From positions 1-57,720 of the forward strand of contig NTJS01000009.1 in NCBI GenBank assembly GCA_002457155.1: a stretch of DNA of 57,720 bases, given 5' to 3'. The notes below the pieces were generated by a model. That model searched no databases, had not been told where the DNA came from, and saw only the letters and a program-made list of their open reading frames with translations. This DNA is from Marine Group II euryarchaeote MED-G35 (GTDB taxonomy: Archaea > Thermoplasmatota > Poseidoniia > Poseidoniales > Thalassarchaeaceae). Position numbers and translations under genes: made by a program. Shown piece by piece: positions 4,670-52,570 of the stretch (positions are counted from its first letter, which is position 1; each line of letters starts with the position of its first letter).

Positions 4670-5875
4670 TCACTCCCCCTTGAGGAATGCATCGATTCTG
4701 TCGAATGCCTCTGAGAGCAATTCCACTTCCGGCAGGCATACCATCCTGAAGTGCCCTTTGCCCATCTCTGGAGAGAAACCAGAACCATGGACGAGCAGGA
4801 CATGCTTCTTGTGAAGGAGGTCTAAGACGAAGTTCTTGTCGTCCGATGCCAACGTTGGATCTGTGATTCTTACAAATAGGTAGAATGATCCTCCTGGAGA
4901 TTGGCACTCTAGTCCATCTATAGATTCGATTCGACTCAATGAGTAATCCAGTCTTTTCTTTATTAGTTCTCGATGCGAGGATAGCCAATCTTGGTCTTCA
5001 ACGAGACCTGCAAGAAAACCATACTGAGCGGGAGTTGAGGCACAAAGACGACTACGGAGCAGTCGCTCGACCCCGTCTCTGACATTATTCAGAACCCCCA
5101 TTGGATCATGCCATGCCATGTACCCAATCCTCCATCCTGGTGCGAAATAGACCTTGGAGACTCCGTTTAGGGTGATTACGGGGACGTCCGTCGATCTTGA
5201 TGCGAGAGAAACAAAATTTCCTGAGAAATCTAGTCCGTCGTATATCTCATCTGAGATTAATGTACACTTTGGAAAATCTCTGGCGATTTCAATTAACGAG
5301 TCTATTTCAGATGGAAGAGGGACGTTTCCCGTCGGATTGTTTGGGTTGATTAGAACCAAGAGTCGTACTTTTTCGTCCATCTTTGAGCGGATATCATCGA
5401 AGTCGATGCGCCAGCAATCCTCCGAATCTAGCTTGTATTCGATTGTCTTAGCCCCGTACATCTGTGGATATGCCATGTATGGGGGATAGTGTGGCCCGGG
5501 AGCTAGAATAGAATCTCCCGGTTCAAGGAAGGCTGCAAACAATATCTGTAATGCCTCAGTTACTCCATGGGTCACGTAAACATCTTCCTCTGAGCATGCC
5601 CATCCTTTCCTGGACTCGGTAGTAGCAATTGCCTTTCGTAGGGGGGTTATCCCATATGATGGCCCATACCCGTTGTCTTGGGAGTCAAGGGCTCTCTTGT
5701 ATGCATCAATCATGTGCCTCGGAGTCTGAAGTCCCTTGTATGCCAGCGGATCCCCGATATTCAGCCTGATGATCTGGTGCCCCTGCTTCTCCAGCTCTAT
5801 TGCTGGAACGACAACGTCCCTGATTGCGTACTCGATAGAAGAGGCCCTCTTGGAAGCATCAACTGAAACGCCCAT
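4670..5875 (-). CDS. Class I/II PLP-dependent aminotransferase (alanine/aspartate aminotransferase-like)
   Basis: The 401-residue protein has the fold-type I aminotransferase motifs in order: N-terminal IGDP (about residue 40), the glycine and aromatic cofactor loop (GYGPSYGITPLR, THGVTEAL), the asparagine motif INPNNPTGN (about 180), the aspartate segment ISDEIYDGL (about 210), the Schiff-base lysine in NGVSKVYFAPGWRIGY (about 240), and the C-terminal arginine region HFRMVCLPE. Overall it resembles archaeal AlaA-type alanine aminotransferases, which move an amino group between alanine or glutamate and 2-oxo acids. The substrate cannot be fixed from sequence. ATG at 5875 lies 4 bases after the alaS stop, so the two genes are probably cotranscribed. 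Pairing an alanine aminotransferase with alanyl-tRNA synthetase would make metabolic sense, but that is inference. Confidence 0.85.
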   Translation of the reverse strand: MGVSVDASKRASSIEYAIRDVVVPAIELEKQGHQIIRLNIGDPLAYKGLQTPRHMIDAYKRALDSQDNGYGPSYGITPLRKAIATTESRKGWACSEEDVYVTHGVTEALQILFAAFLEPGDSILAPGPHYPPYMAYPQMYGAKTIEYKLDSEDCWRIDFDDIRSKMDEKVRLLVLINPNNPTGNVPLPSEIDSLIEIARDFPKCTLISDEIYDGLDFSGNFVSLASRSTDVPVITLNGVSKVYFAPGWRIGYMAWHDPMGVLNNVRDGVERLLRSRLCASTPAQYGFLAGLVEDQDWLSSHRELIKKRLDYSLSRIESIDGLECQSPGGSFYLFVRITDPTLASDDKNFVLDLLHKKHVLLVHGSGFSPEMGKGHFRMVCLPEVELLSEAFDRIDAFLKGE

Positions 5876-5879
5876 TTTC

Positions 5880-8741
5880 TCACAAACCTAGGAGCTTCCG
5901 TGCAGAGTCGAGGGCTGCTGGGATCCCATCTGAGTTGGAACCGCCCCCTTGTGCCATGGTTGGGCTTCCCCCCCCACCCCCACCAATATGGCTAGAAATT
6001 GAATTTAGTATTTCTACGGCATTGTGAGCCTCTGCGGCTGGAGTGCCTTCGGTTATAGCAACGATAAGCTTCCCTCCGCCATCCCTAGTGCCGAGAACCG
6101 CAAGTGTGGGTATTGATGGGTCCCTGGTTAGTTCCCCAAGCATTGACATTAGTGCCTTAATGCCTCCCTCTACCTCCATAATTGAATAACGAATTCCATC
6201 CCTCTCAACCGCTCCATCGCCGCCACCACTGGTCCTTAGTCTGACGATTTCTGCCTCCAATGACTCTATCTTCTTCTGTTGGGACTTCCATTCTTCAAAG
6301 AATCGGGATACGGCCGTAGGTAGATCTTCTGAGGAGACGCCGAGAACCTGGCTTGATTCTTTCAATAGTCGCTCTTGCTCCCTTGCATGCTCGCGTGCCG
6401 TCTCACCTGCCACGATTTGCAGACGCTCCACCCCGTCTTGGACTTGACTGGACCGAATGATGCGCAACTCCCCAATTTTACCGACTTTGTCATGATGCGT
6501 CCCCCCACAGGCTTGGACGTCGTGATCACCGATTCTTATTACCCTAATCTGACTAGATATTGGAGGGCCTCCCTGATACAGCTCGAAACCGAATAATTTG
6601 TCCGCTTCAGCTCGAGTCATTTCGAGTTTCTCGACCGTGGCATCAGAAGCAATTACATCGTTAGAGTAATCCTCAATTCGATTAATCTCATCTCTCGAAA
6701 GACGGGAAAAGTGAGTGAGGTCGATCCTAGCGTAACGTGCTCCCTTGTTTGAGCCTGCTTGCCAAATATGCGGACCCAGTAGAGCTCGAGCACTCCCTCC
6801 GACAATGTGCACGGCCGTGTGATGGTCCATCAACTGACGGCGTCTGTCCCAACTAACAGTTCCAGAGACGTCACCGATTGGTACCGGCCCATCTGTTAGA
6901 TGGTATATGGTGCCATTTTCGACTCTAGTATCACAGACTAGAACATCACCTAGAGAGCCTTGATCCCCCAACTGCCCACCTCCCTCGGGATAGAATAGAG
7001 TTCTATCCAGAACTACATAGTGAGTAGGAATCTTGGTGACCTCACTAGACAGTTTTAGAGAAGATAATTGCGATTCGGATAGATTGCCGCAACCTAATAC
7101 GGATGCTTCGAAAGAAGTCCTGCTAGTATTCTCATAGTAGTCCATTGATGTTGAAGGGTAATCCTCGGAGAGGAATAAATCAGACTGGGCCTTTTCTTTG
7201 GCCGCGGACTTGGTCCTTTCTGCATTCCTGGATGCCATGTCAGCAGCGAAACCAACTCTGACGGCCAACTCTGTCCAGCCTGCTAGTTTGGCTATGGAAA
7301 TTGCCATTTCTGGATTCAAGCCACGTTCTTCTGACAATCTAAAGAGAGTCTCATCTGGAGCTTCTGTGGATCCTAATGGCAATTCTCTGAAGGCTGTCTT
7401 TACCGCCGCTTCTCCCTTTCTAAGCATTTCATGGTATCTTATTTCCTCGAGTTCCAAGATTCTCATCACGCCATCTTTAGATTGGGTAAAATTGGTGAAT
7501 TCTAGATGTTTTTCAATGTGATGAATACCGAGTTCAGATAGTGAGACCCCGAGAGTCAATTCTTCCTTCATCCTGCATACCCTTCTTGCCAGCATCCTGA
7601 CCAAGTATCCGGCCTTTGAGTTGCTTGGAACCAATCCATCGCCCAACATATTGCAAATTGCGTGCATATGATCCGGTATTGCATAGATGCTGGATAATGG
7701 TCCAGTAAGGCGCTTGAGTTCTTCGATAGAAACTTCTAGGCCCGACTCTTGTAGCCTCTCTGACAGTTTCAAGAACAGGCCCTCGACATCCGTTCCGACA
7801 TCGATATTCAGGATCCCCGCTAATCGTGATAACTCCCCCAATAGAAGATCAGTATTGGCAGAGAGTCCGAGTCCCCTAACCATCTCCTCGAATCCGGCCA
7901 GATCTTTCAGCCAATCTACCGACTCCGGATAAATTGCATCATATATCGTCGGCGTACCTGCTGCGGCCCAGCAGAATCTCTCGAGTCCGTAACCAGTATC
8001 GATAATCTGCAAGTCCATCTCACGATATCTGAGTCCCTTAATCTCAACTTCACCCCCTTCATGTTCCTCCAGGTTCATGAAAACCAGTGTGGCCAGCTCC
8101 AACCCCCCAACTATCACTTCCAATGCTGGGCCTGCATTACCTCCTCCCGACCAAGGATTCTCAACATAGGTCAATTCCGCGGGACTGATGCCGAATTCTC
8201 CTACGAGCATCTCGTCGCAATACCTAACGCATTGGTCAATCCAATATATCGTGTCATCTTCTTTGGGTCTGTTGAAGGCATGATGAGCCATCATCTCAAA
8301 TGTTGATAGGTGCCTTCCAGACCTTCCCACGGCAGCTACATCGGTTAGTCTAATGCAGGGTTGGCTGATTACCAATGGATTTGCAGGGGGAGGCACTAGT
8401 CCGCTAGTAACATGAGGTTGGAAGTCTGCAATACTGGCGATTGTGAGATGGATATCATCCCTCCATCTCGCTATAACCGGAAAAGGGGAAATTCTAGAGT
8501 GGCCCCTCTGTTCGAAGAAGTCTTGGAACTTCTCTCGCATCGCATCCTTCAGTTCCTTCCCCCTCATCGAAAATCCGGAGATAATTGGATTGCCGATGAA
8601 TGTGTATGGGTCATCTGTGCTGTCCCCGCAGGTCCTCCTATTTTCGTCCCTAGTCCAAAATCTGGCACCAGTCACAGAACATTTCTTGCAAACATGTCCC
8701 GATTCTGACCAGAAGGGAATATCCACCTCTCCGAAGTTCAC
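5880..8741 (-). CDS. alaS: Alanyl-tRNA synthetase, archaeal type
   Basis: About 953 residues. It activates alanine, charges tRNA-Ala and edits Ser/Gly mischarging. The archaeal N-terminal extension with a metal-binding CKKC segment and FIGNPIISG precedes the class II core, which carries motif 2 around RWRDDIHLTIASI and RLTDVAAVGRSGRHLSTFEM. The editing domain has the zinc signature HHTAVHIVGG and QACGGTHHD. A coiled coil (FFEEWKSQQKKIESLEAEI) leads to the C-Ala domain with a glycine-rich stretch and SPTMAQGGGS. A GTG at 8741 preceded by GAGGGAGG at good Shine-Dalgarno distance is preferred. A TTG at 8771 would add ten residues. It is divergent from rtcB, about 65 bases away, and sits directly upstream of the aminotransferase gene. 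Confidence 0.95.
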   Translation of the reverse strand: MNFGEVDIPFWSESGHVCKKCSVTGARFWTRDENRRTCGDSTDDPYTFIGNPIISGFSMRGKELKDAMREKFQDFFEQRGHSRISPFPVIARWRDDIHLTIASIADFQPHVTSGLVPPPANPLVISQPCIRLTDVAAVGRSGRHLSTFEMMAHHAFNRPKEDDTIYWIDQCVRYCDEMLVGEFGISPAELTYVENPWSGGGNAGPALEVIVGGLELATLVFMNLEEHEGGEVEIKGLRYREMDLQIIDTGYGLERFCWAAAGTPTIYDAIYPESVDWLKDLAGFEEMVRGLGLSANTDLLLGELSRLAGILNIDVGTDVEGLFLKLSERLQESGLEVSIEELKRLTGPLSSIYAIPDHMHAICNMLGDGLVPSNSKAGYLVRMLARRVCRMKEELTLGVSLSELGIHHIEKHLEFTNFTQSKDGVMRILELEEIRYHEMLRKGEAAVKTAFRELPLGSTEAPDETLFRLSEERGLNPEMAISIAKLAGWTELAVRVGFAADMASRNAERTKSAAKEKAQSDLFLSEDYPSTSMDYYENTSRTSFEASVLGCGNLSESQLSSLKLSSEVTKIPTHYVVLDRTLFYPEGGGQLGDQGSLGDVLVCDTRVENGTIYHLTDGPVPIGDVSGTVSWDRRRQLMDHHTAVHIVGGSARALLGPHIWQAGSNKGARYARIDLTHFSRLSRDEINRIEDYSNDVIASDATVEKLEMTRAEADKLFGFELYQGGPPISSQIRVIRIGDHDVQACGGTHHDKVGKIGELRIIRSSQVQDGVERLQIVAGETAREHAREQERLLKESSQVLGVSSEDLPTAVSRFFEEWKSQQKKIESLEAEIVRLRTSGGGDGAVERDGIRYSIMEVEGGIKALMSMLGELTRDPSIPTLAVLGTRDGGGKLIVAITEGTPAAEAHNAVEILNSISSHIGGGGGGSPTMAQGGGSNSDGIPAALDSARKLLGL

Positions 8742-8806
8742 TACGCCTCCCTCGGCCACTCCATTGGACAACTGGTCTTGAAGTCAATGCGCGAAATGGC
8801 CCCGGT

Positions 8807-10327
8807 GTGTTGAAAGGAAAGCATTTGCCAGCGGGATTGATGGATGACTGGGCCCGGTTTCTTGAGGAAGATGGAGATTCCCTGATGAGGATAAAGAAAC
8901 GAGGAGAGATGCTAGTTGATGCGGTGATTGTCTCGGATAGTAACCATGTTGGGAAAAGCGATGACAGGTCTCTGGAACAACTGACCAACACTGCATCTCT
9001 GCCGGGCATAGTTGGTGAAGCCTGGGGCATGGCCGACTTCCACCAAGGATTTGGTTTCCCGATAGGAGGAGTTGTAGCCACCGACATAGACAACGGCGGA
9101 GTAATCTCGCCCGGTGGAGTTGGATTCGACATCAATTGTGGCGTCAGACTTTGCTCGATAGATCTTGGAATTGAAGACTTGAAGCATCTGACTAGGAAGA
9201 AGTCAGGCAGTGGGAGTAAGGAATTCGGGAACCGACTGAAGGCCAGAATTCCGGCTGGGGAGTCTGGAAAGAGCGGTCACAGCCTTAGTTCAAACGAACT
9301 TGACGAAATCCTATCCGATGGTGCAAGGGCTGCTGCCGAGATTGGCCTGGGGCATGAAGAAGATCTCTCTAAGATGGAGATGAAAGGAAGATTGGAGGGG
9401 GACTCTGGTAGTATCTCAGATGTAGCGAAAAGAAGGGGCCTATCGGCTCTTGGATCAATAGGAAGGGGGAATCATTTTCTTGAGATCCAAGTAGTAGACC
9501 AGATTTTAGACCAGAGAGCTGCTAGAAGATTTGGATTGGAGGAAGGGAGGCTTACTGCGATGATCCACACTGGTTCCAGGGGACTAGGGTATCAAGTGTG
9601 TTCAGAGCACGTCAAAGGACTAGAGGGGAAGTTTAGGAAATCTGATGGGAGATGGAGATCTGAAGAATGGGGGATCTCGATTGCTGACCCACAACTCGCC
9701 TCGGCTCCTTTCTTTTCCAAAGAGGGAGAGTCTTACTTCGATGCTATGAAGGCGGCTGGAAACTATGCATTTGCGAATAGGAGCAGTGTGACTCATCATC
9801 TGAGGAGCGCGCTTAGGGCCCACATGGGGGGCGAGGTAGATGTTGGGGTCGTATACGATGTTTGTCACAACATTGCTCGTGTAGAGGACCACGTAGTCCA
9901 CGGTTCTTCTTGCACCTGCTGCGTCCACAGGAAGGGGGCCACCAGGGCATTTGGAGGGGATAACCATGAGATATCTGGAAATTTCTCTGGAATCGGGCAA
10001 CCAGTTCTGGTACCGGGAGACATGGGGACCGCGTCTTACGTAATGGCCGGACCGAGTAGTGGGACAAATCGTGCATTTGGATCATCATGCCACGGTGCTG
10101 GAAGGGCGATGTCGAGAACCGAGGCCAGGAAGAAGATTGACGGGGCGGCAGTCAAAAGAGAGTTGGCCGAGAAAGGGGTCGCGATATACGAAACGCATGA
10201 GAAATACCTGTCTGAAGAGGCACCTGATGCATACAAAGACGTGGATGAGGTGATCAGGCTCACAGAGAAGGCAGGCCTTGCCAGACCCGTGGCTCGTCTA
10301 AGGCCACTAATAGTAATCAAGGGATAG
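8807..10327 (+). CDS. rtcB: tRNA-splicing ligase RtcB (3'-phosphate RNA ligase)
   Basis: The 506-residue protein is full-length RtcB. It joins 2',3'-cyclic phosphate and 5'-OH RNA ends with GTP and Mn(II), completing archaeal tRNA intron removal. Visible features are MADFHQGFGFPIGG, GVGFDINCGVRL with the metal cysteine, GSIGRGNHFLEIQ, HTGSRGLGYQV, YDVCHNIARVE, and near the C-terminus SSCHGAGRAMSR, which holds the histidine that becomes guanylylated. The start is GTG at 8807; no in-frame ATG fits the conserved N-terminus (LKGKHLPAGL). It is divergent from alaS. The stop lies 6 bases from the stop of the convergent small secreted-protein gene. An Archease partner is not in this window. Confidence 0.95.
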   Translation: MLKGKHLPAGLMDDWARFLEEDGDSLMRIKKRGEMLVDAVIVSDSNHVGKSDDRSLEQLTNTASLPGIVGEAWGMADFHQGFGFPIGGVVATDIDNGGVISPGGVGFDINCGVRLCSIDLGIEDLKHLTRKKSGSGSKEFGNRLKARIPAGESGKSGHSLSSNELDEILSDGARAAAEIGLGHEEDLSKMEMKGRLEGDSGSISDVAKRRGLSALGSIGRGNHFLEIQVVDQILDQRAARRFGLEEGRLTAMIHTGSRGLGYQVCSEHVKGLEGKFRKSDGRWRSEEWGISIADPQLASAPFFSKEGESYFDAMKAAGNYAFANRSSVTHHLRSALRAHMGGEVDVGVVYDVCHNIARVEDHVVHGSSCTCCVHRKGATRAFGGDNHEISGNFSGIGQPVLVPGDMGTASYVMAGPSSGTNRAFGSSCHGAGRAMSRTEARKKIDGAAVKRELAEKGVAIYETHEKYLSEEAPDAYKDVDEVIRLTEKAGLARPVARLRPLIVIKG

Positions 10328-38974: not shown

Positions 38975-41386
38975 ATGACGCCGGAAGCATCTACCGAGAG
39001 CGGGCGGGGGCTCGCCCATGGCTCCAAAATTTTTCTGCCGGTCGTCCTATTCCTCCTATTGATATCGTTCAGTGGGGTTTTGGCTCAGGAAGTTAGGAGC
39101 GGATGGGAACTAGTTGATGGGGGAACTGATTCCGATTTGCACACCGCCGAGGCGATAAACGGGGAGATTTGGGCATTTGGAGATGGAGGGGTTATGCTAA
39201 GGAGTCTAGACGGAGGCATCACATGGGAAGTGGACTCCACGGGGAGTCACGAATGGTCGCATTCCGATTCGGGGCATAATTCAATATTAATTGCGACCGA
39301 TGAAGGAGTGGCGATAATTCTAGAGAACATAGGGGGCGGTGAAGATGACAGCAATCAGGAAATCCCAATTTTCCCAGGTCATTTTCTCATTAACGATGTT
39401 GCTCTAACCGGAACTAATGAGTTTGTAACTGTAGGAGAAAATGGGGAGATATGGGAGTTTGACGGCGATGAGTGGATTAATCGTTCGATTGGGATTTCGA
39501 ATGATCTTCTTAGTGTCTCTTTCCTAGATGGAGAATTTGGCATTATTTCGGGCGAGGATGGGACTATTCTCGCTACAGATGATGGAGGATCATCTTGGGA
39601 CTACAGGGATGCTCCTGGTGAATTATCCGCAGTGGATATCGTTGACATTGAGTACTATAGCTCCATCAGAGCATACGCAATCTCCGAGGAAGGACATATA
39701 CTGAAATCGTCCCGAGAAGGAAACCTCGCAGTAGGTTTCGTCTGGAGCATAGTGGAAATAGAAAGGGAGTACCCCGCAGGGGGTGGAAATGAGTTCGTTG
39801 CCGGTGGTACCGAGCTTGACAATGTTGCTTCATCACTGGAAGTCCTATCCCAGTCCAAGATAATGCTAGCCGGTACGAATGGCTACTTGTCCCTGAGCAA
39901 AGATGGAGGCAACATAGTCTCGCAACAGATGATTCCTGTTTCGAACGAAACTGGTTTCAATGCATTTGCGATGCTAGATGGCTTCACGGGCGTTGCTGTA
40001 GGCGATGAGGGAGTCATTCTCAGGACCGAAAATGCTGGTTCGGAGGAACTCATTGGATTCGAGGTTGCTGACTTCGGTGACTTTGGGCAATTCGTCGACT
40101 ACTCTAAAGAGAGGCTGATGGACGGCCTGCTTGCAACCGTCAAAATCGTCTTTTTCGGCATTATTATGGGATTCTCACTGGGAATCATTCTTTCGATGTT
40201 GAAGACCTCTCCGACCACTCTGAAGAACGTCGCGCAGAGCAACCGTTACCAATTTCTCCAATTACTGGTTTTGGCTACATTAGGTCCATTGTGGATCATC
40301 CTGAAAGTTCCTCTTTCGGTTCTAAATATCGTCGGACATTATGGGATCGGAAGAAAATATCGGACTATTGAAAACCCAATCAAACTCGAAAAAATGTTGA
40401 TTTCAATAAAAGGCAAATCAGCAGATATTGCGGCTAGTGAGCCACTGAACATTTTCTCGATTAGAGTTGTGGGATTGATATTGGTTGTTTTCGGAGTCTA
40501 CCGGATATTCTCCAATCTTGATGAAATTAGTGCACTGAATCTAGATGGGTGGGAGCACATATACTCCCCAATTGGGGCTCCGACATCTGTTTTCTGGATT
40601 ATTCTCGGACTGGCTATAGCAGTTCTAGGGGGGATTTTCCTCTCCTGCAATGGAGATTTCTCGATTCGTGACCTAAAGATAGGGAAGTCAGAATTCTCAT
40701 TGAACCCATGGGGGATTAGGCCACTAAACGCAATCGCTACGGCATACACCGATATTTTCCGCAATACCCCACTACTGGTGCAGTTCATGTTCATCCACTT
40801 CGGATTCGAGCTGGGCAGGCGGATGCAGGACCCCGGACTAATGCTATTGAACTTCGAATACCTACAGGGAAATGCTAACTTCCTCACTGACATCTTTGTT
40901 GTCTACGAGACCAATCCGGAATCCCTGGCCTATGGGCGTCCGGTTGGTGGGATCTTAGAAGATAGGGCGTACATTAGTGCAATCTTCGCACTAGGATTGA
41001 ACTCGGGAGCCTACCAGTGCGAAACCATCAGAGGGGCGATTGCTGCCATCCCTTCTGGGCAGATGGAGGCAGGAAGGAGCATAGGCCTGAACTATATGCA
41101 GTCGATGAGACTGGTAGTAATGCCACAGGCAGTAAGGATTTGCATCCCGCCATTGGGTAACGAGATGGTCAATCTTGTGCTGAACTCATCTTTGGCTATG
41201 ATCATAGGTTATGCAGAAATAACTAGGCAGGGCAAGTTGATCGTAGCGACCACTTTCCAAGTATTCTGGACATGGGGGATGGTACTAGTGTCCTACTTCC
41301 TAATCACTTGGACACTGGCTCTCTTCCTAAGGTACCTAGAGGAAAGAACCAGGATTCCAGGGCTAGGGATCTCAGGGGGTGCTTGA
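38975..41386 (+). CDS. Amino-acid ABC transporter permease fused to a Ycf48/BNR-like beta-propeller
   Basis: 803 residues. A signal or first membrane helix (IFLPVVLFLLLISFSGVLA) is followed by an outside propeller (about residues 40-355) with repeats like IWAFGDGGVMLRSLDGGITW, FGIISGEDGTILATDDGGSSW and GVAVGDEGVILRTENAG, as in Ycf48. Then comes a HisM/GlnP-type permease. Its first helix (TVKIVFFGIIMGFSLGIIL, about 388) is separated by an insert with extra helices (to about 560) from the core TAYTDIFRNTPLLVQFMFIHFG (about 590). The EAA loop is AIPSGQMEAGRSIGLNYMQ (about 692). Inserts of this kind occur in AapQ/BztB permeases. No periplasmic binding-protein gene is nearby, so the propeller may take part in substrate capture, which is inference. 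The ATPase gene begins immediately after the stop. Confidence 0.85.
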   Translation: MTPEASTESGRGLAHGSKIFLPVVLFLLLISFSGVLAQEVRSGWELVDGGTDSDLHTAEAINGEIWAFGDGGVMLRSLDGGITWEVDSTGSHEWSHSDSGHNSILIATDEGVAIILENIGGGEDDSNQEIPIFPGHFLINDVALTGTNEFVTVGENGEIWEFDGDEWINRSIGISNDLLSVSFLDGEFGIISGEDGTILATDDGGSSWDYRDAPGELSAVDIVDIEYYSSIRAYAISEEGHILKSSREGNLAVGFVWSIVEIEREYPAGGGNEFVAGGTELDNVASSLEVLSQSKIMLAGTNGYLSLSKDGGNIVSQQMIPVSNETGFNAFAMLDGFTGVAVGDEGVILRTENAGSEELIGFEVADFGDFGQFVDYSKERLMDGLLATVKIVFFGIIMGFSLGIILSMLKTSPTTLKNVAQSNRYQFLQLLVLATLGPLWIILKVPLSVLNIVGHYGIGRKYRTIENPIKLEKMLISIKGKSADIAASEPLNIFSIRVVGLILVVFGVYRIFSNLDEISALNLDGWEHIYSPIGAPTSVFWIILGLAIAVLGGIFLSCNGDFSIRDLKIGKSEFSLNPWGIRPLNAIATAYTDIFRNTPLLVQFMFIHFGFELGRRMQDPGLMLLNFEYLQGNANFLTDIFVVYETNPESLAYGRPVGGILEDRAYISAIFALGLNSGAYQCETIRGAIAAIPSGQMEAGRSIGLNYMQSMRLVVMPQAVRICIPPLGNEMVNLVLNSSLAMIIGYAEITRQGKLIVATTFQVFWTWGMVLVSYFLITWTLALFLRYLEERTRIPGLGISGGA

Positions 41387-44640: not shown

Positions 44641-44646
44641 TTTATG
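44641..44646 (+). promoter_or_regulatory. TATA-like box for the CD36-like gene
   Basis: TTTATG lies 34 bases before the ATG at 44680, so transcription would start only about 10 bases before the gene (a nearly leaderless message). The weak fit to the consensus keeps confidence low. Confidence 0.3.
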
Positions 44647-44679: not shown

Positions 44680-47376
44680 ATGGAGAACAAGGGAACTATT
44701 GCAATTATAATTGGGGCGCTGCTTCTGATGGTAAACGTCGGAATAGGCGTCACAGGGACTATAGACGGCATCATCGAAGGAACCGTAGCAGATACGGTAG
44801 CAGGAAGCTACGACGGCTTGGATGATGATGGAAACCAGGATTACACGGCTGACTTCGATGACGACTGGATCAACGCATCTTCCGAGAAGGCGTACTTCGG
44901 CAACTCGATCACCAATCTGGAGGAAATACTGGCGGATGCGACGGTTGAGCCCACCTATGAGATGTTAGGCCCATTCATCTACTACGAGAACACGACTCGA
45001 GAGGTCATCGAATTCGACTATGACGAGGGCTCGATCACATACTCGGGATACGAGACCTTCGAGTGGTGCGAGGATTGCACCTGGGTGGATGACGATGGAG
45101 TGGAGCACGATTCGTTATCCGGAGACACCGTAGTCAACCAGATCAACATCCTCTGGAACACCCAGAGGATAGCAGGAATGGGGAGCGGTATCGAGTACGG
45201 GGAGATATTCGCTAAGGCGATGTTCGCGGCTCAGATGATCGAATTCGACCTCTCCAACAGAGCACCTAGCATCTGGGCCTCTGAGGATATTGGGGGCACG
45301 GTTGATGCAGCCGGAGGAGGCAAGTTCGGAAACATGAATGCTGAGTTGAACATTTCAGCTGCTTCATATTCTGCCACTGGTCAAACTAACATCTGGACAA
45401 TTCCTGATGATCATGACCTAACTCCCATAAAAACTGCATTTTATACTGCGAATGACGGTTATGGGAACTGTATTGCTCTGACCTGCGACATCGGCCCGGT
45501 TCTGATTGCGGGCATGGGGGCGCCAAGTGACACAGTGACTCCGGCCAGAGCCGCTCTCCTTGGATACAGTGACTGGACCTCTGCAGTAGAGGACACAGTT
45601 GCATTGGATTGGGCTATCTACTCATTGGCAGCGTCCAAGTTCGTCGAGCATGGGGGAGGGGCGGAAATAAACAATCAGACCCCGCAGTTGAAGGAAAGGT
45701 TCGCAGAGGTCAGTGGCCTAACCATCAGCGATCCGTCATCACTAGAAAACCTGCTATTCAACGAAAGCGTTGGGATGCTCACCTCATTCGAAATCAGTGG
45801 GATCCCTCTTCCGGGCATGGTAGTTGGATTACTTCTGCCTCTCCAGAGTGCAGACTACTTCGGGGCTATGACGACATACAACGTTGGCCTACTCACGATT
45901 GCTGGCCTTGCAGATTACGTGGAGCCTTGGGTCGGCTTGGGGTTAACTGGTGCTCCCACTGAGTTCGAGTTGATTCTTGCTGGTGGACAGGGGACCATGG
46001 CCTCCAATGATTGGTGGCTGACTGCATTCGGGGACTACGATCCATTGGGTGGTATTTACATTCCAATAGGGCTGAATAGAGACAGTTTCGCAGGTATGGC
46101 AGAACTGACTCAGGAGCAATCTGACTTCATCCTAAACGACCCGGAAATCGGGCTCAAGTCATCATTCCCAGGTCCATTCATGTATGGTGAGCTTTCCGGG
46201 TTGAGCCTTCCTGATGCAGAAGGGGTACAGCACGTCTGGGACGATGCCTATGTCGCAAACCTGTACGGCATTACTGAGGATGCGGCTCACGCACTTAGGG
46301 ACTGGGTCGCCAATTTCTACTTCGACACGGTGATGCCAGTTCTGCTGAACTTCGTAACAGGCAACACACCCTACTACTCGATGCCCATCAGCAACTGGCT
46401 ATACGGATGGGACGATGCTGTTAGCGCGTACTTCGGATTCTTCTCCTGGAACAGTCTAGAGACGAATGCAACCTACTACGGATCGGACGGTATCAGCACC
46501 GGAGACTGGTCAGTGTTCAAGATGAGCACGAAAGGTGACACGATGGGCCAGAGGATGGCCCAGGGCTACATCAATTCTGACGGGAATGGGCTTTGCGACT
46601 TCGACTACGACGACAATGGGGACTTCATTGGCTACGACCTCGCATGCGAAGATGGGCAGGTGTACGGAATGACCGAACACCTGACTTGGAGAGCCCCTCA
46701 CAGAGAAGAGGGAGCAAACGGGCTCCTGACTGACCATGCTGGGAATTCTGATACTTCGTTGATGGGGACCGCTGGTTCGTTGGCAAGCCCGAACGATCCA
46801 TTCAGCTTTAATGTGGCAGGATACGCAGTTGCGACCTCCGAGGTAGGGAGCAAGACGACGTACAAGGGAATCGACATGGTAGAGCATACAGTGACAGTCG
46901 AGCCCACCAATACACAGATCCAAGGGAAGCTGATTGGCTCTTCCACCTACGTTGATGTAATTCCCGGTGCACTACCAGTGTACCTCGGAGCGGACATAGA
47001 CCTGAAGGTCGAACCAGTTACTACAGCGATAATGTATGGGAAGGTCAAGGTTACTTTCCACTTGGACACACGCGGACCCGGTTTCTTGAATCCGGACCTT
47101 TCGGAAAATAGCACTGAGTCGATGCCAGTATTCGAAATCCATGTTTTCAGTGAGATCGATGATGAGGGTGCCAAGGACTTCACTGGAGCGGTCTCGGACA
47201 ACCTGGGGCCCATGGGTTGGACAAACTTCGGAGGAACAGCCGGAACCGCATTGACTGCCGTACACACGGTTGTCGCTCTAATGTATGTGACTTCGATTGC
47301 GTCCCTGGCATACGGCCTTTCGGACCCAAGCACCAGGGCGATGCTGGGAATTGGAAAAGACGATGATGATGAGTGA
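44680..47376 (+). CDS. CD36/LIMP-2-like membrane protein with two terminal helices
   Basis: 898 residues from ATG 44680 (MENKGTIAIIIGALLLM). One helix at the start (4-28) and one near the end (about 853-880, TAVHTVVALMYVTSIASLAYG) hold a large outside domain, the topology of CD36 scavenger receptors. Several motifs agree in order: GPFIYYENTTREVIEF with SYSGYETFEW-like text at about 95-130, NWLYGWDDAVSAYFGFF followed by YYGSDGISTGDWSVFKMST at about 572-620, and SMPVFEIHVFSEIDDEGAK at about 814. CD36 members have GPYxYRE, a WGYxDP segment, a GKDxIS-like stretch and PVxWxxExxxxD at these places. It is about twice CD36 length, with an insert between. N-glycosylation-type NxT sites and paired cysteines are present. 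Ligand uptake (lipid or particle) is inference. Confidence 0.62.
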   Translation: MENKGTIAIIIGALLLMVNVGIGVTGTIDGIIEGTVADTVAGSYDGLDDDGNQDYTADFDDDWINASSEKAYFGNSITNLEEILADATVEPTYEMLGPFIYYENTTREVIEFDYDEGSITYSGYETFEWCEDCTWVDDDGVEHDSLSGDTVVNQINILWNTQRIAGMGSGIEYGEIFAKAMFAAQMIEFDLSNRAPSIWASEDIGGTVDAAGGGKFGNMNAELNISAASYSATGQTNIWTIPDDHDLTPIKTAFYTANDGYGNCIALTCDIGPVLIAGMGAPSDTVTPARAALLGYSDWTSAVEDTVALDWAIYSLAASKFVEHGGGAEINNQTPQLKERFAEVSGLTISDPSSLENLLFNESVGMLTSFEISGIPLPGMVVGLLLPLQSADYFGAMTTYNVGLLTIAGLADYVEPWVGLGLTGAPTEFELILAGGQGTMASNDWWLTAFGDYDPLGGIYIPIGLNRDSFAGMAELTQEQSDFILNDPEIGLKSSFPGPFMYGELSGLSLPDAEGVQHVWDDAYVANLYGITEDAAHALRDWVANFYFDTVMPVLLNFVTGNTPYYSMPISNWLYGWDDAVSAYFGFFSWNSLETNATYYGSDGISTGDWSVFKMSTKGDTMGQRMAQGYINSDGNGLCDFDYDDNGDFIGYDLACEDGQVYGMTEHLTWRAPHREEGANGLLTDHAGNSDTSLMGTAGSLASPNDPFSFNVAGYAVATSEVGSKTTYKGIDMVEHTVTVEPTNTQIQGKLIGSSTYVDVIPGALPVYLGADIDLKVEPVTTAIMYGKVKVTFHLDTRGPGFLNPDLSENSTESMPVFEIHVFSEIDDEGAKDFTGAVSDNLGPMGWTNFGGTAGTALTAVHTVVALMYVTSIASLAYGLSDPSTRAMLGIGKDDDDE

Positions 47377-47450
47377 GTAGATTTGTGCTTCTCCCGAAGC
47401 ATCGTTTTCTGTCACCGCTCAACTAGGTGCAACCGTTGCGAGGTGCCAGC

Positions 47451-48527
47451 ATGAGGCTCAAGCACATAGACAGGATGAGGGCTATCGCGGTCCTCTTCAT
47501 GGTCGAGGTCCACACAGCGGCGATCATCCCCCCCAGTGGGATTACTGTAGGTCATCCTGCAGCATTCGTTGCAGCTGCCTTCGGAGGTATGGCGGCACCG
47601 ATGTTCATCACAATTTCCGGATGGGGGATGTACAGTAGTGCCTCCAGAAGATCCTCAGAGGGGCATACGGCTAGTCAGTGGGCGAATTGGATTGTTCCCC
47701 GATTTGCCCTTCTCTGCGTGTGCCAGATCATGGTTAACGTCCTTCTGAACGTTGAGAGGGGAGGGAGGTTCGAGTGGCACACGCCGGGAGTTCTAACGAT
47801 GCTTGCCATTTCGGCTGTGATTTGTCCTGCAATAGTGAGGACTAGCATGGGGGCCAGAACGATGTTGATGCTCCTATTCTGCGCATCTCCCTTGGTTCTG
47901 GGAGCGAACTCCGGTCCCGAAATGGGTTGGTTCGAAAGGGTCGATTCCATCGGCATGGAGGAGTGGGTTGGAAGACTACTGTGGAACGGGACCTATCCGG
48001 TTTTGCCATGGTTCTTTTACATCCTCCTTGGGACAGTTCTTCACGACCTACGTGGCGACTGCAGAGCCAGGGAGAGAGGGATAGTTTTGGGAATAATAGC
48101 TACTTCAGCGACATTGGCCTTGTCCGTGGTCGAGGGGGTCGACTGGGCTCTGACTTCAGGAGATGCCATCCTCACATTCTTCCCCGCTAGTATGCCCTTC
48201 CTGGTCGTCTCGGGAACGATGGTCGCATTGGCCCTTAGGATTCTTGAGGGAGAAGAGGAATCCGGGGGGGAGCCGCTAATGGGAGATAGTCTGTCAGTGT
48301 TGGAGCCTGTCGGGAGGCTGTCCCTGACGGTCTACGTTTCTCACTTCGCAGTTCTGGGCGCAGTGGCCCTACTGATGGATGGTGAGCCGAGGCTGGCCCT
48401 GGTTCCGGCATTCCTGGTAACCATCTTGCACACGCTTGTCTGGATACCACTGGCAGTTATGCATGAGAGGCACATCCCCTGGCTCTCCCTTGAGGAGTTG
48501 CTGAGGAGAAGTCAGTCGTCCAGGTAG
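47451..48527 (+). CDS. Multi-pass membrane acyltransferase-like protein (HGSNAT/DUF1624 or acyltransferase-3 type)
   Basis: 358 residues from ATG 47451, which follows GAGGTG; a GTG at 47427 is weaker. The N-terminus RLKHIDRMRAIAVLFMVEVHTAA has the RxxAIxVLxMVxxH pattern of the heparan-alpha-glucosaminide N-acetyltransferase and acyltransferase-3 families. Then come about nine helices with AAPMFITISGWGMY, PWFFYILLGTVLHDL and SLTVYVSHFAVLGAVALL. Members transfer acetyl or acyl groups to sugars or lipids across the membrane. The substrate is unknown. The 3' end overlaps the convergent peptidase gene by 16 bases. Confidence 0.65.
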   Translation: MRLKHIDRMRAIAVLFMVEVHTAAIIPPSGITVGHPAAFVAAAFGGMAAPMFITISGWGMYSSASRRSSEGHTASQWANWIVPRFALLCVCQIMVNVLLNVERGGRFEWHTPGVLTMLAISAVICPAIVRTSMGARTMLMLLFCASPLVLGANSGPEMGWFERVDSIGMEEWVGRLLWNGTYPVLPWFFYILLGTVLHDLRGDCRARERGIVLGIIATSATLALSVVEGVDWALTSGDAILTFFPASMPFLVVSGTMVALALRILEGEEESGGEPLMGDSLSVLEPVGRLSLTVYVSHFAVLGAVALLMDGEPRLALVPAFLVTILHTLVWIPLAVMHERHIPWLSLEELLRRSQSSR

Positions 48528-51500
48528 TCCGTAGTCCACGTGATTGGCCCGAACCATGTCTCCCCGGCATCATTGGCGGCCCTGATCCGTGCATGGTACT
48601 CGGTGCCACAGCAAGATAGCCCTGTTATCTCCATGTTCTCGTTTCCGACTTGAGTCTCGCCGATCTCGACATTGTCCGACCATGCAGATGGTTGGGTCCC
48701 GCCATCCGTCGTCCCGTAGAAAGCAGTGAGCGTGATGTTGGTCCCGTTGTCGTAGGTCTCCCATGAGATGTTGACCGAGTTCGCATCGGATATGCTGGGT
48801 GATTGCAGGTCCCTCAGGATTGCCGGGTACTCGTAGAAAACGCCCCTGAGTGGGTCGTCCGTCCAAACGGGAAGGTGTGCAAGTGCGTCGAAAGTGGTCT
48901 GTTCGAGAGGGAAACCCCAGGCAGCGTGGTACGGGGCGAGGTTGAATCCCGTCGAGTTCGACAGATGGAGGACCCATGCGTTGAATTTCTCGTCGTCCGT
49001 CGAGGGCACCTCCGCTGCTGGTAGGTCATAGTACACCGATAGGGCGGATGTGATCTCGACCCATGACCACTCCTCCTTGATCATCAGGAATGTCTCCAAG
49101 GCGACCCATACGGACCAGTCAGCGATGTTCGCCCCGTTGTCGAAGTACGTCCGGGTCCTAGACTCACGCTGGTCCGGGGAGACGGCCCCGTGTCCAGAGA
49201 CGCCGACCAGGTCCTCCATCAGGTAGATGCTGGCGAAGTTGCATCCAGTTTCGGTCGTACCGGGCAGGGTAGATGGCATCCACTGGTGGTTGTGCCCCAG
49301 CTCGTGGAACATTCCCCAGTCTCCCTCGGTGCTCATGTGGGTGACGTTGACCACTGCCGGGACACTGAGGTCGTGAGCCATGAAGGGGTAGCCAGAGTGC
49401 ATCCAGCCGGCGGATATCTGGGCATCGAAGACTGCCCGCTCGACCCTCGTCCAAGGGAGGAAACCGTACAGCTCGTGCTCCATCCCCAGGGCCTGATTCC
49501 ACCACCCCATGAGGTCGTCCGGCCCATCTAGGTCCCTGATCTCGTGGCTGGGAACGGAGAGGATGAACTGGTCGCTCCCTATTTCCGCCCATGGCGCCGG
49601 TGCATGCCGGTTAATCTGGATCCAATCCTCCACGTCGGTCTCGCCGTGGTTGTAGGTAGGCGCCTCTACGGCATTGGATATTGTGACTTCGAAGACCCCC
49701 AGTGTCGAACCAGGCTCGATGGCCACGTAGATGGGCCCGCCGAATGCGTTTCCGACTTCCATGTCGGTGTCGTCGACGTACCACCAGCGTACTATCTCCG
49801 GATGCCGGTGCAACTGGTCCTTCCCCCATAGGTTGTCACTATGCGCACCCACGAGGATGTATGTCCCAGAATCCACTATGCTAGGGGGAAGTGTGACTGC
49901 GACTACCTCTCCCGGGGCAGCGTATGTACCGGTTGTCATCCTCACGTGAGCCCTCGCTGATGAGTAGCCGAAGTTCGATGGGAGTCCGCTCTGGTTGCCA
50001 TCTACTGACACGGTTCGAACGACCCTGCTGGCGTTGGTGGGAACTTCCCCCGGGAATTCCTGATGACTCGGATGCGATGTTAGCTGGTCTGCTGGCAGAC
50101 CCTGTGTCAGGGCAGTCTCGACCCTGAGGATGGTGTCTGCTACTGGGTCCTCCCCGAGATCGTAGCCTACGTCCTCCCAGAGCGTGCCGTACTCGATCAC
50201 AGTCCATCCCGTCTGGTTTACCACTTCCCTGAGGGGCGCCCAGAAGTCATCGAAGTCGAGGGAGACCACACTAGTGCAGAGGGAGAGTGTAGAATCGGCT
50301 ATTGTCGCCTCTGCGATTGAGAGAGAATGGCCTTCGATTCGGTCTTCCCTGATTGCTTCGATGGCGGCCCTGGGCCGTGCTAGCTCATGGGGGACCTCGC
50401 TCATGTCCACGTCGTTGTAGCCCCATGCACTGGAAACGAAGAGGCCTGTTTCCTTGGCTATCTTGTTACCCGGGTAGTTGTGGGCCAGGTCTGTATTGGA
50501 ATATGACCAGTACCAAGCGTGACCACCCATTATCACCCCTCCGCCATCGAGAAGGAAGGAGGTTATGTTCTGGTTGTCGTCGTCGTCATGGCCATTCCAG
50601 AACTCGTCTAGAAGACAGTCCAGTCCAGACAGGTTATCGGGGGAAACTGAGTTCCGTACCGTGTGGCCCTGTGACTCCAAATCGTCTTGGAATCCATCGA
50701 AACCGGCACCATAGGAAAGACCGACTACTGCATTGGCCCCACAGACCCACTCCACTGCCTTGAGGGAGAAGGTGGTCTCGTCCGCCCCGCCGCTTCCGGA
50801 GACCCAGCTCTCGTGCCCATAACCAAGCATCCTTCCCTTGCCAACGTGACTGGCGGATATCACTGGGATGTCCGAGGTATATCCCCCTTCGGCGAATGCC
50901 ACTGGGAAGGACCACTCGCCTATCGGGAGCACGGGAGATGGCCAGCCACCCCAACTGGTCTGCCCCATCCCCCGGAGTAGGTCACTCTGATCTGCAGCGA
51001 GGTCGTGAACTGCGATCCAGATGCTGCTGGAGGTTGTGCCTCCTGAGTTGTTGGCCCAGAGTGTGTACTCGGACCAATCGGTTCGTTGATCAGGGGTCCC
51101 TGAGATGGTCCCGGAGTCGGAAATGGTTAGTCCGAGAGGGAGTTGTGGGTCCACCTCCCAGGTGTCAATGGAGGGCCCCGAGTATTGGGGTTGGATGGAT
51201 GCGCTCTCGTTCGAGGCTAGTGCGAACTCGTTGTCGGGCCATGTCACGGCTTGCGGAGGGAGGCTGATGATGTGGAATGAGACCTGGGTTGAGTCCCCCC
51301 CTGCGGAGTTGTTCGCCCAGATTGTGTGATAGGATGTTTCCTGCAAATGGGTCGCAACCCCCGAGATAACTCCGTTCTCCTGGTCGAGTGAGAATCCAGT
51401 AGGTAGTGGTGGGTGAGCCATCCAGATTGTTGGGCTCCCACCGCCCCATGAGGGCATCACCGAGCCGATGTCATCGCCAAGAGAGAGGTTGAATGTGACT

Positions 51501-52570
51501 TGCTGGTATTCGAGGTCCCAGACTGGAAGGTCGATCACCTCGATGTATATGGTGGACTGGGTTGCCCCGCCCGAGTTCTCAGCGGTGATCGTGTATCCGG
51601 TGGCTTCCTGCAGCACGTCAGGCGAACCCGAGATCGTGCCGGAGGGAGTTAGGGAGAGGCCCGCTGTCAGATCGGGAGCAATCTGCCAGGACGTGATTTC
51701 CCCACCAGTGGTGCTGGGGGAAATCGAGATTGGTTGCCCTAGTGAGAATGTGAAGTGAGATGCCCCGTAATCGATTGATTCAGGGGATGCATGGGTGGTG
51801 ATTATCCTGAGTGTGGATGAGGCCTCGCCTGCGCTGTTGTAGGCCGTTATGGTATGGTTGCTGTCGCCGATCTCGGAAGGTGCCCCAGAGACCGAGCCGT
51901 CAGCACCCAACATGATTCCCGATGGCAGGGGGGGATCGGATGCCCAGTTTTCTGGGGTTCCGCCGAGGAACGACGGGGTTTCCAAGTGACATACCTCGCC
52001 CCTCGTGCAGTAGAGGGTTTCCGTCTGGAGGTCGATGGAAATAATTTCAGGGGGGAGAACTGTGATTTCCAGCCTGAACGATGACACCCCCATTGCGTTG
52101 GATGCGATGATAGTGTATGACTTGGGGGATGACTCATGGGCCGGGGTTCCCGCTATCACCCCGGAATCTGGGTCTATTGATATCCCATCTGGGAACGATG
52201 GGTTGACAGCCCAAGAACTAGGGGCGTCCCCGAGGAAGCTCGGTGTCATCTGCTGGATCTCTGCACCTATCTCCAGTGTTACCTGCGACTCGCCGAAGTC
52301 GAGCATCTCCGGCCTCATCATGGTCCGGCACAGTTCCCCGGTGAAGACCTGCTGCTGTGAGCAGTCTTCCTCGGTGACGGTGTGCTCGAAGCATCCGTCC
52401 GCAGTTGGATCCTTCGCACAGTCTGGTTCTGCCGGCGTGTCAACTTCGCTTTCGGTTAAAGATGCGCATCCGGGCAGTAGGAGGAGCAGAGATATCGTCA
52501 CGGCGAGAATGTGTTTCCCATGCACGTACCGCACAGGGGGTGCCAACTGAATATCTTGTGCATCCCTCAA
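48512..52570 (-). CDS. M60-type metallopeptidase lipoprotein with putative Ig (He_PIG) repeats
   Basis: 1352 residues from TTG 52570, which overlaps the glyA stop (TTGA); GTG 52534 or 52525 are alternatives nearer the signal. A lipobox-like end, LLLLLPGCAS, suggests a lipid-anchored N-terminus. Five or more He_PIG-like modules follow (about 85-560), each with LPxGxxL, GxISGTP and YTIxAxNSAG features. A middle region with an NxPGNK-type segment resembles the GATase-like domain of AcfD proteins (about 570-700). The M60 core has the gluzincin motif MFHELGHNHQW (about 1085), a downstream glutamate near YLMEDLVG, and TGFNLAPYHAAWGFPL typical of M60. A fibronectin-III domain ends the chain. M60 enzymes cut mucin-like glycoproteins. 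Confidence 0.85.
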   Translation of the reverse strand: MRDAQDIQLAPPVRYVHGKHILAVTISLLLLLPGCASLTESEVDTPAEPDCAKDPTADGCFEHTVTEEDCSQQQVFTGELCRTMMRPEMLDFGESQVTLEIGAEIQQMTPSFLGDAPSSWAVNPSFPDGISIDPDSGVIAGTPAHESSPKSYTIIASNAMGVSSFRLEITVLPPEIISIDLQTETLYCTRGEVCHLETPSFLGGTPENWASDPPLPSGIMLGADGSVSGAPSEIGDSNHTITAYNSAGEASSTLRIITTHASPESIDYGASHFTFSLGQPISISPSTTGGEITSWQIAPDLTAGLSLTPSGTISGSPDVLQEATGYTITAENSGGATQSTIYIEVIDLPVWDLEYQQVTFNLSLGDDIGSVMPSWGGGSPTIWMAHPPLPTGFSLDQENGVISGVATHLQETSYHTIWANNSAGGDSTQVSFHIISLPPQAVTWPDNEFALASNESASIQPQYSGPSIDTWEVDPQLPLGLTISDSGTISGTPDQRTDWSEYTLWANNSGGTTSSSIWIAVHDLAADQSDLLRGMGQTSWGGWPSPVLPIGEWSFPVAFAEGGYTSDIPVISASHVGKGRMLGYGHESWVSGSGGADETTFSLKAVEWVCGANAVVGLSYGAGFDGFQDDLESQGHTVRNSVSPDNLSGLDCLLDEFWNGHDDDDNQNITSFLLDGGGVIMGGHAWYWSYSNTDLAHNYPGNKIAKETGLFVSSAWGYNDVDMSEVPHELARPRAAIEAIREDRIEGHSLSIAEATIADSTLSLCTSVVSLDFDDFWAPLREVVNQTGWTVIEYGTLWEDVGYDLGEDPVADTILRVETALTQGLPADQLTSHPSHQEFPGEVPTNASRVVRTVSVDGNQSGLPSNFGYSSARAHVRMTTGTYAAPGEVVAVTLPPSIVDSGTYILVGAHSDNLWGKDQLHRHPEIVRWWYVDDTDMEVGNAFGGPIYVAIEPGSTLGVFEVTISNAVEAPTYNHGETDVEDWIQINRHAPAPWAEIGSDQFILSVPSHEIRDLDGPDDLMGWWNQALGMEHELYGFLPWTRVERAVFDAQISAGWMHSGYPFMAHDLSVPAVVNVTHMSTEGDWGMFHELGHNHQWMPSTLPGTTETGCNFASIYLMEDLVGVSGHGAVSPDQRESRTRTYFDNGANIADWSVWVALETFLMIKEEWSWVEITSALSVYYDLPAAEVPSTDDEKFNAWVLHLSNSTGFNLAPYHAAWGFPLEQTTFDALAHLPVWTDDPLRGVFYEYPAILRDLQSPSISDANSVNISWETYDNGTNITLTAFYGTTDGGTQPSAWSDNVEIGETQVGNENMEITGLSCCGTEYHARIRAANDAGETWFGPITWTTDYLDD

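Follow-up and report, generated by a model that had tools for sequence, protein, structure and literature searches.

A probable CD36-family (class B scavenger receptor) protein with an enlarged apex in planktonic archaea of the order Poseidoniales

We analyzed a 57,720-nucleotide stretch of DNA (the window) from the Marine Group II euryarchaeote MED-G35 (contig NTJS01000009.1 of assembly GCA_002457155.1; the genome is 1.2 Mb in size and 67.6% complete). Positions 44680..47376 of its forward strand encode a protein of 898 amino acids plus stop (ATG at 44680, stop ending at 47376), which, judged from its sequence, very probably belongs to the CD36 / class B scavenger receptor (SR-B) family as an archaeal representative. 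There is a further in-frame ATG at 44644; the alignments of relatives begin at the ATG at 44680. We gathered relatives from 50 genomes out of 60 related ones, counting that of the window, and from 32 loci in named genomes, and we retained 29 of the 70 full-length frames, the window protein included, with pairwise identity below 72% by BLAST. The search that yielded these 29 members relied on similarity to the window protein and not on Pfam. Among the matches listed, the reading frames of the family have no internal stop, with the sole exception of a second CD36-like copy in the one-contig genome G037. (This copy, at 6547-9236 on the minus strand of locus L120, spans two frames with one stop reported, and the second frame contains masked or unknown bases.)

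All of the parts of the protein that we describe lie on the forward strand. An N-terminal transmembrane helix is predicted from hydropathy at 44695..44766 (about residues 6-29, within a hydrophobic segment at 3-29) and is present in all 29 rows of the alignment. The N-terminal part of the CD36 core follows at 44857..45147 (residues 60-156), as supported by the Pfam match, the alignment with LIMP-2, and hhalign. A length-variable insert at the putative apex, with about 380 residues beyond CD36 and LIMP-2, occupies 45148..46314 (residue 157 to about 545; the borders are approximate). The middle part of the core, at 46315..46779 (about residues 546-700), is recognized by the PDB profile search, by PF01130 matches, and by hhalign, and the C-terminal part, at 46780..47229 (residues 701-850), by hhalign, by the alignment, and by matches to PF11271 (PorA/DUF3068) in 5 of 29 C-terminal pieces (best 3.5e-4). 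The window protein itself has no match to PF11271. Finally, hydropathy predicts a C-terminal transmembrane helix at 47242..47316 (about residues 855-879), which is followed by a short acidic tail.

The initial annotation of this gene had described a protein about twice as long as CD36, and indeed it has 898 amino acids versus 472. The same annotation proposed a single helix at each end. Hydrophobic segments are found at both termini, so this part of the proposal holds, but an inner hydropathy peak at residues 370-388 (1.62, with a threshold of 1.6) departs from a simple two-helix plan, and 9 of the 29 members, including the window protein, have at least one such inner peak. Also, the window protein has a weak C-terminal helix (a peak of 1.67 at residues 858-876); the peak is higher in all 28 other members.

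Homology to the CD36 family, which the initial annotation had raised as a possibility, is supported by matches to the Pfam profile of the family (PF01130) and by ordered similarity through the core, apart from the apex insert. The window protein has a significant match to PF01130 (27.1 bits against a gathering cut-off of 26.5; E = 1.9e-6; residues 77-132). All 29 of the divergent Poseidoniales members match as well, with a best E value of 1.6e-20, where a match is counted at E up to 10 and not by the curated cut-off. In a first set of relatives, 20 of 20 matched at E up to 1. Another 8 of 8 members scored above the cut-off, but these came from genomes that were already known to match PF01130. 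When we compared the profile of the 29 members to 177,635 distinct PDB sequences, the top eight matches were seven chains of LIMP-2 and one of CD36 (E = 7.8e-6 to 1.4e-4), and the next were two ADP-ribosyltransferase chains (E = 0.0045 and 0.051). In the LIMP-2 chains 4q4f and 4q4b, the match consists of three ordered stretches of the profile (67-142, 546-640, and about 776-801), of which the second contributes about 5 bits and the last scores below zero.

To compare the parts of the protein separately, we used hhalign to align pieces of the family to an alignment of CD36 and LIMP-2 (two eukaryotic sequences), with 100 column shuffles as a control; the borders of the pieces were set after the first alignments had been inspected. 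None of the 100 shuffles did as well as the N-terminal piece (residues 30-157; score 51.6 versus 19.6 for the best shuffle), the middle piece (31.3 versus 19.7), the C-terminal piece (30.6 versus 20.9), a longer C-terminal piece (31.3 versus 21.1), or the whole protein (57.0 versus 21.8). Furthermore, the three pieces fall in order along the CD36/LIMP-2 alignment, the N-terminal one at positions 19-99, the middle one at 130-213, and the C-terminal one at 249-407. As another control, the best score among 156 other proteins from the same loci was 22.1, whereas the three pieces and the whole protein scored 30.6-57.0; this is a weaker control because single sequences were used. The middle piece also gives matches of its own: with this piece alone, 8 of the 29 members have a PF01130 match (best 3.2e-9; those shown do not include the window's piece), and when the middle piece (490-700) was compared to PDB, LIMP-2 filled the first seven of eight rows (E = 0.33-0.41). 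These comparisons support, at the level of sequence, a collinear similarity to CD36 through the core of the ectodomain, apart from the apex insert.

Four CD36-like motifs had been pointed out in the initial annotation, and they do occur in the claimed order: GPFIYYE, a strand motif (44968-44988, residues 97-103); LYGWDDA (46399-46419, residues 574-580); GSDGISTGDWSVF (46480-46518, residues 601-613); and SMPVFEIHVFSEIDDE (47119-47166, residues 814-829). Because each of them sits in aligned register with human CD36, the motifs are more than a chance resemblance. The hhalign alignment runs from the GPF.Y strand to NWLYGWDDAV over ELLWGYRDPF and YKGIDM over LKGIPV, and further on it places VEPVTT over IEPITG and ends in PVFEIHVFSEIDDEGAKDFTGAVSD, so that it includes the motifs of the initial annotation.

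What accounts for the doubled length? Residue 157 of the window protein and a residue near 552 align with LIMP-2 positions that are just 17 apart, which leaves about 380 extra residues. By this comparison, the window protein is a CD36 core plus about 380 extra residues at the apex. A duplicated CD36 core is not supported as the cause, as the similarity of the insert to CD36 and LIMP-2 (piece 158-500, hhalign score 16.4) was equaled by 7 of 100 shuffles. An insert piece (140-490) had no match in PDB. According to the available part of a survey of eukaryotic SR-B proteins, the members with over 500 amino acids expand between motifs M4 and M6, at the ligand-recognizing helices (PMC10715195). As far as we can tell from the alignment, the insert, which follows the N-terminal strands and precedes the WLYGW motif, occupies the same M4-M6 interval. 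(NWLYGWDDAV aligns with ELLWGYRDPF of CD36 at the presumed M6; this assignment of M6 is our own reading and is not taken from the published motif letters.) The insert is shorter in some relatives. Two proteins from two genomes of one genus (L137 and L138) have 736 and 725 amino acids and lack about 160 model positions from the insert. Another (L072) has only 619 amino acids and lacks about 260 model positions, while the frames of two congeners comprise 929 and 937; as the short form is known from one genome, it may be an assembly deletion.

The family is confined to the order of the window's genome in our survey of 389 Thermoplasmatota genomes (the group sizes of 127, 7, and 255 were read from kinship labels and the total, with 254 unmatched genomes not itemized). 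The family profile matches 115 of these genomes, all of them among the 127 sampled Poseidoniales. Outside the order it matches none of the 262 Thermoplasmatota genomes: 0 of 7 in a second family of the same class and 0 of 255 elsewhere in the phylum. PF01130 itself matches 102 of the 389 genomes, with 90 above the cut-off, and 0 of 14 control genomes. Contamination with eukaryotic DNA can be rejected, given the common archaeal neighbors of the gene, its presence in 115 of 127 genomes of the order, and its presence in G037, which is a single contig of 2.06 Mb. Searches for an origin in mobile elements, which had limited sensitivity, gave no candidate: 8 stretches among viral contigs fit a pattern and none was confirmed by tblastn, and no relative was found in plasmids with the member L065 as the query.

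In a tree of the 29 members, for which the root is the midpoint only, a well-supported branch splits 13 rows, all from the window's family (f1), from 16 others (13 from family f2 and 3 from f1). One genome (G029) carries one copy of each kind, divergently oriented. This pattern suggests either an ancient duplication or exchange among members of the order.

Animal cells use CD36 for the uptake of fat. If the window protein does belong to the CD36 family, then by analogy lipid uptake is a somewhat better than even prospect for its role, and the explanation that we favor overall, with modest confidence, is that it is a lipid-uptake receptor. More specifically, it is probably a lipid-capture conduit that feeds fatty-acid oxidation. 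Both ends of the protein would be anchored in the membrane, with the large domain outside of the cell. The conserved core would fold into the asymmetric beta-barrel typical of the family, through which a lipid tunnel would run, and the apex insert of about 380 residues would be a ligand-capturing head, which might bind seawater-borne fatty acids, membrane vesicles, or particles rich in lipid. From there, hydrophobic molecules would travel down the tunnel into the cell membrane, and the cell would oxidize the lipids so delivered. We infer the outside location, the barrel, the tunnel, the ligand, and the direction of transport from known family members; by the same analogy, the protein may be a surface receptor for lipids or particles. 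In CD36 proteins, lipids are believed to reach the membrane through the tunnel of the barrel, with ligand recognition assigned to the apex (PMC10715195, PMC4912623). Fatty-acid degradation has been reported for all Poseidoniales genera (PMC6461757, in the portion available), and the window's genome has 4 acyl-CoA dehydrogenase matches.

Cysteines bear on this proposal as well. Human CD36 has C-terminal disulfides. The window protein has cysteines at residues 130, 133, 264, 269, 639, and 656 only, with none beyond residue 656; it lacks the C-terminal disulfide pattern of animal CD36 and is therefore not of the animal subtype. The number of cysteines is even in 22 of 29 members (one of which has none), and this counts in favor of an extracellular lipid receptor because paired disulfides outside of the cell would give even numbers. 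The member without cysteines (L065 in G049, 883 amino acids), which lies on a long branch, has the best CD36 score of the 29 (1.6e-20), although all 28 others have 4-12 cysteines each.

The neighbors of the gene are common within clades and different between clades, as seen in a comparison of 18 loci. This variation also counts for a lipid-uptake receptor, because a stand-alone receptor would have such neighbors. No operon that would reveal the function was found in these 18 loci, and the ten neighbors scanned include several housekeeping genes from Poseidoniaceae, such as those for pyruvate kinase, a synthetase of the PheRS type, and a relative of AIR synthase. The gene for tRNA-Met is upstream in the window and in 16 of 16 loci scanned. 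A gene for a choice-of-anchor T protein is near the CD36-like gene in the window, and a choice-of-anchor gene is found in 29 of 32 loci.

The next gene in the window (47427-48527, forward strand) matches HGSNAT (heparan-alpha-glucosaminide N-acetyltransferase) and Acyl_transf_3. In 27 of 32 loci the fetched stretch includes an HGSNAT-like gene, which adjoins the CD36-like gene in some cases and is separated from it by about 4 kb in others; it was not seen beside the CD36-like gene in the f2 loci of the 18-locus comparison. In animals, HGSNAT and LIMP-2 are both lysosomal membrane proteins. On the minus strand at 48512-52570 is a 1352-residue M60 (enhancin/SslE-like) metalloprotease with five putative immunoglobulin (Ig)-domain stretches, and 25 of the 32 loci contain a relative of it in the DNA fetched. 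Farther upstream, a forward frame of 803 amino acids (38975-41386) joins a polar amino-acid ABC permease domain to an N-terminal stretch that matches the YCF48/BNR repeat family (PF14870, E = 2.1e-11) and looks like an unusual fusion. In one of the compared loci (L122 of G059; 5256-7469, forward strand), what appears by eye to be a multi-pass RND/MmpL-like transporter adjoins the CD36-like gene. In mycobacteria, PgfA interacts with MmpL3 (PMC9678360).

Several observations weigh against a CD36-family lipid-uptake receptor. First, the window protein passes the Pfam cut-off by just 0.6 bits, and it gave no match in an NCBIfam scan or in a single-sequence phmmer search of PDB. Second, the pieces are weaker alone: the middle piece reaches only E = 0.33 in PDB, hhalign assigns probabilities of just 19-22% to the middle and C-terminal pieces, and the C-terminal piece has no CD36 match in Pfam or PDB. 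Third, 12 of the 102 genomes that match PF01130 are below the cut-off, and 7 of the 29 members have an odd number of cysteines. Fourth, none of the window neighbors scanned is a known lipid-uptake gene. Finally, three genera have no match to the family profile (g15, 3 of 3 genomes; g7, 2 of 2; and g17, 1 of 1), and therefore the function is not indispensable in the order.

An alternative that we consider unlikely is that the protein has the same fold and another job: as in the actinobacterial LmcA/PgfA, it would move the cell's own envelope lipids or glycolipids outward, between the membrane and the surface, and would not import lipids as food. The PF11271 matches in the C-terminal pieces amount to a weak similarity to these proteins below the cut-off, but just 1 of 29 full-length members matches PF11271 (0.0058), all of the printed scores are below the cut-off of 29.5 bits (the best among relatives is 22.4), 0 of 40 genomes of the order pass it, and only 1 of 7 weak matches is in the CD36-like gene. 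Also, the N-terminal and middle parts match CD36 and not the LmcA/PgfA family. The crystal fold of LmcA resembles those of CD36 and LIMP-2, but with one protruding helix in place of the three-helix bundle (PMC8972800). Whereas LmcA lacks the bundle at the apex, the window's family has an enlarged apex. Among the 18 loci compared, no envelope-lipid gene recurs as a fixed neighbor.

An adhesion receptor, whose head grips particles, prey debris, or polymers while the barrel is merely a stalk, seems more doubtful still. The apex is large and variable in length, as such a head might be; particle attachment and adhesion proteins have been reported for the group (PMC6461757, in the portion available); and the window's neighbors include the M60 protease with Ig-like domains and the choice-of-anchor protein. 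However, the core is more conserved than the insert (the mean column identity is 46% in the C-terminal piece and 43% in the middle piece versus 30% in the insert), which suggests selection beyond the role of a stalk. Finally, a non-homologous two-helix surface protein that resembles CD36 by chance or composition, although it would account for a window protein that alone matches just 55 Pfam positions and finds nothing by phmmer in PDB, and although the ADP-ribosyltransferase matches imply that weak chance matches to the family profile do occur, is very improbable and we reject it, given the E value of 1.6e-20 in a relative, the PF01130 matches in 29 of 29 members and in the middle pieces, the top PDB ranks of CD36-family chains, and the collinearity of pieces that were tested separately and outscored their shuffles.

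The initial annotation had described the CD36 family as known mainly from animals and some protists. This description is too narrow: a survey that covered 165 eukaryotes reports the family throughout the group and infers that their last common ancestor had it (PMC10715195). In the cited literature, as far as it was accessible, the family comprises eukaryotic proteins, plus some bacterial ones by shape (PMC10715195, PMC8972800). The text of the pan-eukaryotic study contains no mention of archaea or of any "prokaryot" term (PMC10715195). In a literature search that most subscription papers fell outside of, no paper that names PF01130 concerned archaea by its title, and none linked CD36 with Poseidoniales or Marine Group II. 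Database entries may already be labeled CD36, as the Pfam profile itself detects the archaeal proteins. What the comparisons above support is an archaeal variant of CD36/SR-B with a predicted enlarged apex in abundant ocean archaea. Poseidoniales have been described as the planktonic archaea that are most abundant in the surface ocean (PMC6461757), and the protein is a candidate for the route by which they acquire the fatty acids that they are thought to degrade. We also suggest, tentatively and as a possibility that we would not bet on, that CD36-type lipid conduits predate eukaryotes, and that the Poseidoniales branch, which would import environmental lipids as food, joins the eukaryotic SR-B proteins and the actinobacterial LmcA/PgfA in one superfamily. 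The archaeal family is CD36-like through the core and weakly LmcA-family-like in its last third, so it could be a sequence link between structures that have so far been compared by shape.

In summary, the window protein shares with CD36, SR-BI, and LIMP-2 (PF01130) a hydrophobic helix at each end, an ectodomain in between, and collinear similarity in three parts of the core, and its extra length is at the position of the apex, as in the eukaryotic members of over 500 amino acids. It differs in that it is archaeal, has 898 amino acids, and has about 380 extra residues at the apex. With the PorA-DUF3068 family (PF11271), which includes LmcA and PgfA of Actinobacteria, there is weak similarity in the C-terminal third of some members; in contrast to LmcA/PgfA, the window's family has an enlarged apex and its N-terminal half matches CD36 instead. 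A further close parallel is found in the apex-expanded SR-B proteins of protists such as oomycetes and ciliates, which, as described in the available part of PMC10715195, also have an ectodomain of over 500 amino acids and an expansion between M4 and M6, whereas the window protein has an archaeal host and an insert with no detected relative in PDB.
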